From: Halopseudomonas xinjiangensis | Lineage (GTDB): Bacteria; Pseudomonadota; Gammaproteobacteria; Pseudomonadales; Pseudomonadaceae | NCBI GenBank assembly: GCA_011050525.1 | Contig: DRFO01000004.1 | Coordinates: 52,550 to 116,549 of the forward strand | Length of the DNA stretch: 64,000 bases | Direction: 5' to 3' | In this document: positions 44,664-48,981 of the stretch, one piece after another | Layout of the letters: each line of letters starts with the position of its first letter | Numbering within the stretch: the first letter of the stretch is position 1 | Program-made: the position numbers and the translations under genes | The notes under the pieces: model-generated | What the model was told of the DNA's origin: nothing | Database searches by the model: none | What the model saw: only the letters and a program-made list of their open reading frames with translations

Positions 44664-45131
44664 TTAACGAACGACTTGGAACATCCGGTCATCGTAACGG
44701 AAGTCGAAAACATCTTTTATTTTTACATCTCGAATGGCCGGATGGGCCGGGTTGAGCACCACGTTGCGCTCAAGCGGTAACACCACTGAAGGAACAATCA
44801 GCCCCAGGTGTTTGCCTTCGTGTAGCCAGGCCGAGCCGAAGTCGGCACTGGGGCGATCCGCTGGTAACGAGTCCCAACCTTTCGGTAGTTCATCTTTGGT
44901 TGGCTCCCAGTAAAGGCTCGGGTCGTCGGGCAAGGTGAAGCAGCTGATTTTCATGGGGATTTTTGGTACCCCTGCCTGGTGTACAAAGGTTTCCAGACAG
45001 CAGATCGCCGGCGACAAGCCCATATACACAGCGGGAAGCTCTTCCTCATTCCAGCGACTGCCTTCAAGAGCAGCCCCAATGCCGCTCAGGTCTTGAGCGC
45101 GCTTTTCCTTCGCAATCCGCCAAGCTAACAT
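44664..45131 (-). CDS. RES-domain toxin
   Basis: AWRIAKEKRAQDLSGIGAALEGSRWN...AVYMGLSPAICCLETFVH; downstream of Xre partner, TGATG overlap. Confidence 0.88.
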   Translation of the reverse strand: MLAWRIAKEKRAQDLSGIGAALEGSRWNEEELPAVYMGLSPAICCLETFVHQAGVPKIPMKISCFTLPDDPSLYWEPTKDELPKGWDSLPADRPSADFGSAWLHEGKHLGLIVPSVVLPLERNVVLNPAHPAIRDVKIKDVFDFRYDDRMFQVVR

Positions 45132-45598
45132 CAAGCGGCATTGCCCCACTCAATAGCATGAAGTACTCGACGTACCTGCTTTGCTCCCAGCTCGGTATCG
45201 CACAGCGAAAAAGGGCGTTCGCCACCCAAGGAATGGTTAGGTGTAATTAACCATTTGGTAGCCACCTGCGAATCTTCGAATACCTCTTTGGCTAGCAAAG
45301 CCACCTGCAAAAAGCGGTCTATTCTTTCCGAAGCGACCGCGTCGAGACGTTTGCCGTCTTTCACACGACGCTCAATGCTGGAAGAGGAAAGGTTGAGGAT
45401 GGGGCTCAGCTCATGGCGGGGTAATTTAAGCTCTGCCGAGAGCATGGTGATGAAGGCAGAGGGGTAACCCAGCCGAATGACCTTCAAGCGATCAGCGTCA
45501 TTCCAGGCCCCAACTTCTTCGGCTATGTCCCAGAAGTAAAGGTTCGCGTGGCGACGGAGCGCAGCTGTAAATTCGCTGGGGATATCCAAGACCTGCAT
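45131..45598 (-). CDS. Xre/MbcA/ParS-type antitoxin (DUF2384 C-terminus)
   Basis: HTH-like region plus AKEVFEDSQVATKWLITPNHSLGGERPFSLCDTELGAKQVRRVLHAIEWGNAA. Confidence 0.9.
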   Translation of the reverse strand: MQVLDIPSEFTAALRRHANLYFWDIAEEVGAWNDADRLKVIRLGYPSAFITMLSAELKLPRHELSPILNLSSSSIERRVKDGKRLDAVASERIDRFLQVALLAKEVFEDSQVATKWLITPNHSLGGERPFSLCDTELGAKQVRRVLHAIEWGNAA

Positions 45599-45605
45599 AG
45601 TTTTC

Positions 45606-45635
45606 TCATTTGAAAATTTATAACCTGTCAAATGA
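45606..45635. promoter_or_regulatory. Inverted-repeat operator candidate upstream of the RES/Xre operon
   Basis: TCATTTGA (45606-45613) and TCAAATGA (45628-45635): perfect 8-bp arms, 22 bp apart, directly upstream of the antitoxin start. Confidence 0.65.
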
Positions 45636-45686
45636 TAGTTTAAGGAAGGCCTGAACACAATAAAGCGCCATGCCGCCTCCCTGACC

Positions 45687-47696
45687 TTACAGCACCGTTT
45701 CGGCGACCGGCATGCGTCCAACGCCCCAGCTTCGCGTTATGAAACCGATGACTTCATCCAGTTCGTCACGCGTGACCTTGGCCAGTTCGCCATGTTCAAG
45801 GGGGTCGTAGTGGAATATATACAAACGTGACAAGAACTGCTCGAAGGGCAGGGAGGCTTCACCGAAGCGTTCGCCATAGCCGGCCGTGCTGACGGTTACG
45901 CCATCTCCCCAGTTCTGACCGCTGTCGTTGTTGGGATTGAAGAAATACACCCGCATCACATCTTTTGGGTCAAGCGTCACCCGCAAAATGGTAATGGCGT
46001 GCCAGCCGATGAAGCGTGCCGCCGTGTCGGTAACAGCGATGCCGGCAGGTTGCGGATGGATCAGCGGTTGATTGCCGTTATGGTAGGGATGATAGGCCGC
46101 ATAGAAATGCCGGAGAAAATCCTCCAGATCCACCAGGTTTCCGGTCGGCACATCGACATTCAGCCGAAAGCCCCGCCCTGACCACCAGCCATGAAATTCT
46201 GGATTGACCCAGCGATGCGGGTCGCCCTCCCGGTCGCTGCAGCGCCGACCCATTTCGGCATAGATTCTGTCCAGATGGGGCACCACCAGCAGGGAGACCG
46301 CGTCCAGATCTATCGGGAGGCTTGTAGCGACGCCCGACGCGCTTTCTCGGGAGGAGATCGGTTGCCCTTCGAAATGCATGATGATTTCATCATCCCGCGC
46401 CGCCCAGGTAACCATCTGCAACAGGTAGTCGGGGTCGTTGTACGACCACATGGACAACGCCCGTGCCGATTGGCAGGTGGGGTTGTTGCCCTGTCCGACG
46501 CCGAGTGGCAGGCCGAGCATGCACAGCACGCCTTCCAGCAGAAAGGCTTCGGGAGGCACGCCGTTGCCGAATGCAAGGGTAAGGCGTTCCCGCGACCAGG
46601 ATGAAAGCGGCAGTCCGAGTTGACGCCACATGGCCGGGGCGACGGGCAGTTGGTAAAGGATGCCCCGCTCAAGCAGTAGTGCCAGTCCGTAGATCGCCTG
46701 CGGGGTTTCGGGGAACACGCTTTTGTCGATCAGGCTGAGTACCAGTTCCCGGTAGCACAGCAGGCAATCCCTACCGGTCGAGGATAATCCCAGCGCCTCA
46801 GACAATAAATATTCGCCCTGCTTAAGCAGATGGCGCACCAACACCGTGTGATAAGCCGACACCAGCCCCGTATCATGCATTGCTCGCGCAAAGCCGGTCG
46901 CCTCGCGCTGAAGGGCCGCGTTGTCCATGTAGTCCAGACGTTCCTGGTAGATCTCCAGTCCGGGATCTTCGCTACAGGCATGGGTCGGTCCAAACAGACT
47001 GCTGACCAGCCGATAAGCACCCTGGCCGCTGGCGCCCAGGTCAATGTTCGGATCGGCCTGACAAATGGCGATCTGCGTAACCATGCGTTTTACTGCGCCG
47101 ACCTGAATGGGGCGCTGCTGAAGAATTCGCCAGATTTCGTCGATCAATTGATCAATGACCAGCTCATAGCCAATGCAGCTGGCCAGGTAGTCCAGCAGCT
47201 TGCGTGGCAACTCGACCAGTCTGCCCAGCGTTTCGCGCTCCGCCTCGTTTGGTGGCTGGAAGAGCAGGGTGAGATTGCTTGCCAGTACTTGGGTAAGGAA
47301 GCGCTGCGCCTGCTCGGCTGACATCATCCCATGCTGGTAATCCTGCCGCGCCACCGCCAGTAGCCTGAGCTGGCTCAGGGCCTCAATTACCAACAGATTG
47401 GCGTCGGGGCTGCGCAGTGTGGTGGCTGACAGCGAGGGAATCAAGGTGTGGGGGCTGGCCCAGTCGGAGCCGCTAAACACGCCAGCGCCTTCAATGGCCT
47501 GGGCGCGTTGCTCGATAGCTGCACAACCGCCATCCAGCATCAGGACGCGCCTGGCAGTATCGAGCACCCTGCCGAGCTTGCCTGCCTTGGCAAATCCAGG
47601 GGCGGCCTCCAGAATGCTTAATGCTTCGTCGAGCCTCGTCAGCAAGGTAGCCAGCTTGCCCTCGTCGGCAGAGCTGTTTACGTCATCAATTGCCAC
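45687..47696 (-). CDS. Large protein of unknown function with possible C-terminal papain/transglutaminase-like Cys-His-Asn signature
   Basis: 669 aa; NNPTCQSARALSMW ... FIGWHAITILRV...YFFNPNNDSGQNWG; 58 bp downstream of the ATP-grasp gene. Confidence 0.75.
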   Translation of the reverse strand: MAIDDVNSSADEGKLATLLTRLDEALSILEAAPGFAKAGKLGRVLDTARRVLMLDGGCAAIEQRAQAIEGAGVFSGSDWASPHTLIPSLSATTLRSPDANLLVIEALSQLRLLAVARQDYQHGMMSAEQAQRFLTQVLASNLTLLFQPPNEAERETLGRLVELPRKLLDYLASCIGYELVIDQLIDEIWRILQQRPIQVGAVKRMVTQIAICQADPNIDLGASGQGAYRLVSSLFGPTHACSEDPGLEIYQERLDYMDNAALQREATGFARAMHDTGLVSAYHTVLVRHLLKQGEYLLSEALGLSSTGRDCLLCYRELVLSLIDKSVFPETPQAIYGLALLLERGILYQLPVAPAMWRQLGLPLSSWSRERLTLAFGNGVPPEAFLLEGVLCMLGLPLGVGQGNNPTCQSARALSMWSYNDPDYLLQMVTWAARDDEIIMHFEGQPISSRESASGVATSLPIDLDAVSLLVVPHLDRIYAEMGRRCSDREGDPHRWVNPEFHGWWSGRGFRLNVDVPTGNLVDLEDFLRHFYAAYHPYHNGNQPLIHPQPAGIAVTDTAARFIGWHAITILRVTLDPKDVMRVYFFNPNNDSGQNWGDGVTVSTAGYGERFGEASLPFEQFLSRLYIFHYDPLEHGELAKVTRDELDEVIGFITRSWGVGRMPVAETVL

Positions 47697-47754
47697 ACAC
47701 GATCTCCACTTGAGTCTGCAAGCTGCCCATCATAGGTGCCTGAAAAAGGATGTG

Positions 47755-48981
47755 CTAGATGTAAAAATCCAGCTCTTCCTGACGCTTGAGCAGATCATGC
47801 ATGACCGTCGCGTCCTCGCCAACAAAATAGACCAGGCCCCAGTGCGTGCCAAAGGCGGTGCGCTTGGTGACAATTTCTTCTACGGGTGTGGTCAGTTCGT
47901 GCGATTCGAAGTACGGATGTTCTTCGGTCTCTTCGGGAATCGTCAACTGACTCACCACGCGGCGACGGGGATACACGCCGAAACACCCGGCATAGCCCGT
48001 GGCATCTTCGATCTCCCTGGGAAAGTAGGCTTTTACTTCCTCCTCGGTAGCTTTGGGATCAAATACCAGCATGGAGGCGTGATAGGCATTGAAGCCCTTG
48101 TAAACCCGTTCGAGAAGCTCGAACACCTTGAAGCCCGGCGGCCGGTAGGCGACTTCGCCGAAATACATTTCGCCGTCGCTGGTGACAAAGTATTCGGGAT
48201 GAATCATGCCGAAGTCGATCTCGAAGGTTTTGATCAGCTTGTTGATCTGCTCGACAATTTTCGGGCGGTACTTTTCCAGCTCCGGTGAGGCGGGTACATG
48301 TACCGAATAGCCCAGGCGCACGTATTCGGAGATGTTCAGAAAGCAGATCTTGCCCTTGTGAATCCAGGCCTCCACCGCGAACTCCCAGCCGTCCAGGTGG
48401 GATTCCATCAAAGAGGGGAATTCATCATCGGGTATCGCATCCACATCGTCAGGCGTGCGAATTACCCGGTGTCCAAGGCAGCCTGCCTTGTCAAAGGCCT
48501 TGAAATGAATCGGGTCGTTGGGATCACCGTCCAGCTTGAGCAGCGTCTGATTGACGCGCTTGAGGAAGCGAATCACGTCTTCGCGGTCGTGGGCTTCCTC
48601 GAAAATACCCACGCGGATACCACCGAGCTGCGCACGGCGTTTCATTAGTGATTTGTCGCGCATCAGCATCGACTGGCCCAGCAGCCTGGGCTGGTCCAGA
48701 AGCACCGCATTGATGGCGCCGGCCCATTCAACGGTCTCTTCGAATAGTGGAATGGCTACATCTACGCCCATATCCTTCAGGGTCTGAGCGATTTCCATCG
48801 AGCGGTCATTGAGGCGTTCGAAATTCCACGGCACATAGGGTATGTCATGGGCCTGGCAATATTCTTCGGCCCACTCCGGGGCGACTACCACATAGCGTCG
48901 GTCAAAGGTTTCAGCCGCTTCTACGGCATTGGGAGCCCAGCCGAGCAGGGCGATAAAGCCTTTGGCGGGATCTTTTTTCAT
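47755..48981 (-). CDS. ATP-grasp domain protein
   Basis: 408 aa; PIHFKAFDKAGCLGHRVIRTPDDV...ESHLDGWEFAVEAWI...IHPEYFVTSDGEMYFGEVAYRPPG. Confidence 0.8.
   Translation of the reverse strand: MKKDPAKGFIALLGWAPNAVEAAETFDRRYVVVAPEWAEEYCQAHDIPYVPWNFERLNDRSMEIAQTLKDMGVDVAIPLFEETVEWAGAINAVLLDQPRLLGQSMLMRDKSLMKRRAQLGGIRVGIFEEAHDREDVIRFLKRVNQTLLKLDGDPNDPIHFKAFDKAGCLGHRVIRTPDDVDAIPDDEFPSLMESHLDGWEFAVEAWIHKGKICFLNISEYVRLGYSVHVPASPELEKYRPKIVEQINKLIKTFEIDFGMIHPEYFVTSDGEMYFGEVAYRPPGFKVFELLERVYKGFNAYHASMLVFDPKATEEEVKAYFPREIEDATGYAGCFGVYPRRRVVSQLTIPEETEEHPYFESHELTTPVEEIVTKRTAFGTHWGLVYFVGEDATVMHDLLKRQEELDFYI

Follow-up and report, generated by a model that had tools for sequence, protein, structure and literature searches.

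The window analysed here, a stretch of 64,000 nucleotides of Halopseudomonas xinjiangensis (contig DRFO01000004.1, positions 52,550-116,549 of the forward strand), carries a pair of adjacent genes on its minus strand. The first gene (47755..48981) encodes a putative ATP-grasp ligase of 408 amino acids; the second (45687..47696) begins with a GTG start codon and encodes a protein of 669 amino acids, hereafter called C669. According to the open reading frame (ORF) list, the ATP-grasp gene lies 5' and the C669 gene 3', with an intergenic gap of 58 bp (47697..47754), which reproduces the coordinates, strand and spacing given in a preliminary description of the locus. The motifs quoted there are present as well, namely PEYF and GEVAYRPPG in the ATP-grasp protein and the Cys, His and Asn motifs NNPTCQSARALSMW (C408), FIGWHAITILRV (H566) and YFFNPNNDSGQNWG (N587) in C669. 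That this arrangement exceeds chance is confirmed: both reading frames are conserved across families (C669 with about 39-92% identity, the ATP-grasp protein with 72-92%), their order is kept, and the quoted residues are invariant.

The ATP-grasp protein matches the Pfam family PF13535 (ATP-grasp_4) with an E-value of 5.8e-5 and 23.2 bits, which is under the curated cut-off of 27. A profile of its family matched the Protein Data Bank (PDB) entries 4dim, 4wd3 and 3vot (E 1.6e-4 to 4.9e-4), among them the L-amino acid ligases 4wd3 and 3vot (E about 2e-4 to 5e-4); with the single sequence, the match to an L-amino acid ligase was weaker (E 0.006) than with the family profile (about 2e-4). The motif GE[VI]AYRPPG is kept in all aligned homologues. 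The profile evidence, weak but consistent, points to a member of the ATP-grasp superfamily that resembles L-amino acid ligases, in agreement with the original assignment. The L-amino acid ligases (BL00235 of Bacillus licheniformis, PDB 3vot, and PDB 4wd3) are of similar size (413-425 amino acids), share the ATP-grasp fold by profile over residues about 190-310 and possess a Glu-x-Ala-x-Arg motif, which aligns with the window protein; however, the relationship is remote, as judged by sequence profile, and to our knowledge these ligases have no obligate cysteine-enzyme partner.

An inherited gene pair

A scan of public genomes retrieved at least 539 relatives of C669, and gene order was examined in the best 80 loci, which belong mainly to Halomonadaceae, together with Halopseudomonas, Alcanivorax, Saccharospirillum, Guyparkeria and Ectothiorhodospiraceae. 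At 77 of these 80 loci, C669 is immediately preceded by the ATP-grasp gene in the same orientation. The gap measures 12-94 bp in most homologous loci, and in locus L195 the two genes overlap by 8 bp. C669 occurs in nine of 38 genomes around the window's own, itself included; a search of 28 genomes for the ATP-grasp gene found it in these nine alone, adjacent to C669. Among 370 gammaproteobacterial genomes, C669 and a full-length ATP-grasp gene were detected in exactly the same 16 (Fisher 2e-28, kinship ignored). The two genes can be separated and both still be present, as in genomes G291, where they lie 55 kb apart, and G365, where they are located on different contigs. The ATP-grasp gene and C669 are an inherited unit with obligate pairing. 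Two outcomes that the preliminary description had named as refuting it, homologues without the three residues and a lack of co-occurrence in other genomes, were not observed. Over 89 loci, the pairwise distances of one protein correlate with those of the other at 0.88, a value that vertical inheritance alone could yield. Since the wider neighbourhood varies between loci, except for synteny inside related groups, the two genes represent the constant part. Some genomes contain two or three copies of C669, and at L146 (the second copy in G354) and L151 (the third copy in G522) an additional ATP-grasp gene has no C669 next to it. A single plasmid homologue of C669 was found, on a 1.8-Mb Halomonas replicon.

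This distribution bears on the kinds of system to which the pair could belong. Clusters for dipeptides and for ribosomally synthesised and post-translationally modified peptides (RiPPs) often include ATP-grasp and papain-like enzymes, and the pair might be part of a natural-product cluster that makes a RiPP or a dipeptide antibiotic. We regard this as very improbable: the genes are widespread and largely vertically distributed over hundreds of loci, the space between them is too small for a precursor gene (outside the pair, small precursor ORFs were not systematically searched), and no recurring exporter or tailoring gene was seen at the loci examined. A role in anti-phage defence is also unlikely; the pair had no match in PADLOC or PHROGs, and no C669 homologue was detected in phages or viral contigs.

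C669 as a candidate papain-like enzyme

The preliminary description could not place the 669-amino acid protein in a family, and searches of Pfam, NCBIfam, PADLOC and PHROGs bear this out with zero matches for C669; a set of 24 diverse homologues gave no credible Pfam match either. No signal peptide is apparent by eye. Residue conservation was counted over 115 non-identical homologues, in all of which Gln402, Cys408, His566 and Asn587 are kept, with a spacing of 6/158/21. Gly403, Pro406, Thr407, Gln409, His494, Trp496, Glu500, His536, Ala567, Pro588, Asn589, Gln594 and Gly597 are likewise invariant, and Cys408 is the sole invariant cysteine of the protein. In papain, the corresponding arrangement consists of Gln19, Cys25, His159 and Asn175. 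By analogy, Gln402 (codon 46491..46493, minus strand, as for all codons given here), located six residues N-terminal of Cys408, is proposed to contribute to the oxyanion hole, and Cys408 (46473..46475), directly followed by a predicted helix from residue 409, is the candidate nucleophile. His566 (45999..46001) precedes the invariant Ala567 and a predicted strand (residues 567-575) and could act as general base, and Asn587 (45936..45938), which stands with Pro588 and Asn589 just behind a predicted strand (residues 580-586), would be the third residue of the triad.

C669 thereby appears to share with the papain-like cysteine peptidases of clan CA the elements Gln-(5)-Cys, His-Ala and Asn-Pro in canonical order and spacing, all of them invariant, and a predicted secondary structure, with a helix after the Cys and strands around the His and Asn, that is compatible with papain topology. 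In contrast to these peptidases, C669 has a long helical N-terminal region and the additional invariant residues His494, Trp496, Glu500 and His536, and its sequence profile matches no papain-like family in Pfam or among solved structures. The likeness to papain- or transglutaminase-fold enzymes noted earlier has to be divided. Its papain half is strengthened by the invariant Gln six residues ahead of the Cys and by the compatible secondary structure, whereas a transglutaminase is less likely because of Gln402 and Asn587; of the candidates for the third position of a Cys-His-Asp triad, Asn587 and Asn589 are invariant, while Asp591 is conserved in 113 of the 115 homologues.

Two regions can be distinguished in C669. 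The N-terminal region (residues 1-395; 46512..47696, minus strand) is predicted to be all-helical in the AlphaFold model m5737087d7245, with a block pLDDT of mostly 70-96 at residues 11-180 and 241-390, and no significant structural neighbour was found for it. The C-terminal region (residues 396-669; 45690..46511, minus strand), which is proposed to be the papain-like catalytic domain on the basis of its conservation and active-site residues, is the better conserved one, with a mean majority-residue frequency of 0.87 versus 0.76 in the N-terminal region. Two structure predictions were made, one of the entire C669 from 40 sequences (homologues 72-82% identical) and one of its C-terminal 292 residues from 56 sequences; both alignments were shallow and consisted of close relatives, the more diverse C669 homologues being left out, and Foldseek searches of both models against the PDB gave nothing significant. 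It is the motif together with the predicted secondary-structure topology that suggests a papain fold. ATP-grasp ligases with a papain-like neighbour are well established; in the libraries searched, C669 stands outside described families and the ATP-grasp protein falls remotely into one.

Deacetylase, ectoine synthase and a possible function

A subfamily of the histone-deacetylase family, defined here as matches to the deacetylase of locus L124 with E-values up to 1e-90, is present in 13 of the 16 C669-bearing genomes and in no other of the 370 gammaproteobacterial ones (Fisher 2e-21, kinship ignored). At the same E-value level, it was not detected in ten C669-negative relatives from the window's genus. 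The position of its gene varies: the order is C669-ATP-grasp-deacetylase in L124, C669-deacetylase-ATP-grasp in L127 and ATP-grasp-C669-deacetylase in L172; in L125, C669, the ATP-grasp gene, an egtD-type methyltransferase gene and the deacetylase gene follow each other on a single strand, and in L147 the deacetylase gene is convergent with C669. The methyltransferase gene of L125 (1810-2784, minus strand) encodes an EgtD-type histidine methyltransferase. Hist_deacetyl genes also adjoin the module in L044, L047, L078 and L083; these belong to a different subfamily, about 36% identical, and were rejected as the partner.

Since histone-deacetylase-family enzymes include acetylpolyamine amidohydrolases, the set could be a system for polyamine conjugates like glutathionylspermidine synthetase/amidase, in which the ATP-grasp protein would join a peptide or an amino acid to a polyamine, C669 would hydrolyse the conjugate and the deacetylase would free acetylpolyamines. 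A PotA/PotD-like transporter gene directly upstream of the module in L028 and L074, both from Saccharospirillum, would fit such a role. We nevertheless consider it improbable: in the alignment, the partner deacetylase subfamily lacks a loop that is present in the acetylpolyamine-type neighbour of L044, polyamine genes are not recurrent among the identified neighbours, and the glutathionylspermidine synthetase and CHAP domains that characterise the known system were not found by Pfam in the window proteins and 24 C669 homologues.

A second link leads to ectoine synthase, EctC, which is encoded in all 26 C669-positive genomes tested. In a sample of the class comprising 240 genomes, 35 have EctC, including 8/8 C669-positive genomes compared with 27/232 of the others (Fisher 1e-7, kinship ignored). 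In two distant lineages, ectC closes the operon of the module. In L195 (genome G026), where the ATP-grasp gene and C669 overlap, ectC begins one base past the C669 stop codon, and in L127 (genome G267) ectC is the last of four genes, behind C669, the deacetylase gene and the ATP-grasp gene; both EctC proteins were confirmed by NCBIfam. Both genomes carry ectA-ectB on a separate contig, preceded by a MarR-type gene, and no neighbouring ectC was detected there; in G267, that contig stops 243 bp past ectB. Assembly errors are an unlikely explanation because there are two independent cases, one of them very tightly spaced. Several genomes (G190, G284, G557, G169 and G272) have two to four EctC-type matches each, some of which are divergent and lie outside ectABC. 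Solitary ectC genes outside ectABC have been described, and the role of solitary EctC was called unresolved (Czech et al. 2018, PMC5924519); 'ATP-grasp' and 'ectoine' do not both occur in the text of that article, which thus does not describe the module. No publication was found that connects ATP-grasp enzymes in this way with ectoine, or that connects them with a histone deacetylase or an acetylpolyamine amidohydrolase.

The associations with the deacetylase and EctC point to osmolyte metabolism rather than peptide tagging, and the pair probably belongs to salt-stress metabolism in a role not yet described. Of the ligase/hydrolase pair on a peptide-like substrate envisaged in the preliminary description, the pairing is retained and the peptide-tagging context is less favoured. 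We tentatively favour the reading that the two proteins may form the core of a cytoplasmic system of ectoine producers that makes and trims amides of a small soluble metabolite. Like an L-amino acid ligase, the ATP-grasp protein would activate a carboxylate as acyl phosphate and couple it to an amine. C669, as a cysteine amidohydrolase or acyltransferase, would employ Gln402, Cys408, His566 and Asn587 to cut or transfer an amide in the manner of papain. In many genomes, the zinc enzyme of the histone-deacetylase family might act in the same route by removing an acetyl (or acyl) group. As substrates, the ectoine-pathway compounds 2,4-diaminobutyrate, N-acetyl-diaminobutyrate and ectoine would be likeliest, or an osmolyte made alongside. 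A functional analogy is provided by the biosynthesis of N-acetylglutaminylglutamine amide (NAGGN), in which an ATP-grasp ligase and amide-acting enzymes are employed by salt-adapted bacteria. In NAGGN synthesis, however, the ATP-grasp protein carries a fused acetyltransferase domain and cooperates with an amidotransferase, and no NCBIfam model of that kind matched the pair.

The same three enzymes could instead break down ectoine or N-acetyl-diaminobutyrate in parallel to DoeA/DoeB, with C669 opening the ring or cutting the amide, the deacetylase removing acetate and the ligase using diaminobutyrate. A deacetylase is the enzyme expected for acetyl-diaminobutyrate, the ectC operons of L195 and L127 are in keeping with an ectoine-related route, and in L153 an L-piperidine-6-carboxylate dehydrogenase-type gene precedes the ATP-grasp gene by about 50 bp. 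The coupling to ectC, however, suggests synthesis rather than degradation, an ATP-consuming ligase is unexpected in a simple catabolic route, and the loci examined showed no transporter or catabolic gene that recurs, so that we consider breakdown quite unlikely. Modification of proteins, which we also judge unlikely, would involve an ATP-grasp protein that couples an amino acid or a peptide to a target protein, C669 as the enzyme that removes it and a deacetylase acting on lysines of the target; papain-fold enzymes are known for deconjugation. Conservation of the ATP-grasp protein is unusually high, as if it recognised a conserved macromolecule: its mean pairwise distance is 0.14, compared with 0.28 for C669. 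The deacetylase neighbours, and a sirtuin gene in L119 and L121, could indicate lysine as well. Against this, the two-gene operon, with its gap of usually <70 bp, revealed no tag protein, the closest solved relatives of the ATP-grasp protein are free amino-acid ligases, and the ectC operons suggest a small-molecule pathway.

Several observations weigh against an amide-forming and amide-trimming system in ectoine metabolism as well. EctC is also present in 10/10 C669-negative genomes of the window's genus, so that among the genomes tested, C669 carriers are nested within ectoine producers, and the co-occurrence may mirror habitat, ectoine synthase being common in salt-tolerant bacteria. The ectC operons are known from two draft genomes with short contigs, of which G026 is 75% complete, and these two lineages, with ectC inside the module's operon and away from ectAB, differ from most genomes, in which the module is not near ect genes. 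The window is one of the latter: it holds the two core genes alone, with neither ectC nor the deacetylase gene nearby. The deacetylase is a frequent and not an obligate partner of the pair, because the genome of the window lacks the subfamily altogether. For C669 itself, a search of the PDB with its profile returned no relevant match and no papain relative, and the pLDDT of the C-terminal region was mostly 25-50 in both AlphaFold runs, which used the shallow alignments described above.

A more far-reaching reading, which we regard as rather unlikely, is that the three enzymes convert ectoine or (acetyl-)diaminobutyrate into a hitherto unknown amide that serves Halomonas and related halophiles as a new compatible solute or storage form, with C669 founding a new papain-like family. 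If this were true, some of the ectC genes outside ectABC would gain a partner. A strictly co-inherited set that, among the genomes tested, is found only in EctC-bearing ones, and whose operon contains ectC in two lineages, would represent an overlooked step of ectoine metabolism in organisms that are standard for research on osmoadaptation and for industrial ectoine production, such as Halomonas and its relatives. The operon link makes the function of ectC outside ectABC testable in these lineages, and C669 is a large, strongly conserved enzyme candidate outside every Pfam family.

Other neighbouring genes

In the window, a Pfam scan identified genes for a small multidrug resistance (SMR) transporter and a Na+/H+-exchanger-family protein upstream of the pair. 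Directly 3' of C669, on the minus strand (44664-45721), lies a toxin-antitoxin pair consisting of an Xre/MbcA/ParS-type antitoxin and a RES-domain toxin; this stretch has a G+C content of 0.53 compared with 0.58 for the window, and the two genes were set aside as a local neighbour. Elsewhere, the surroundings differ. The sirtuin genes of L119 and L121 encode CobB-like, NAD-dependent deacetylases and lie near the ATP-grasp gene, which is convergent with C669 at these loci. In L153 (8031-10953) and L154, an aldehyde dehydrogenase gene is located directly upstream of the ATP-grasp gene, with C669 elsewhere in both genomes, and the protein of L153 exceeds the NCBIfam cut-off for L-piperidine-6-carboxylate dehydrogenase. 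In these two genomes, C669 (L122 and L123) is the gene preceding an operon for an Mrp-type Na+/H+ antiporter, and a gene for a BCCT transporter of choline or betaine is found near the module in L073; the Mrp antiporter of L122 and the BCCT transporter fit, loosely, with salt adaptation.

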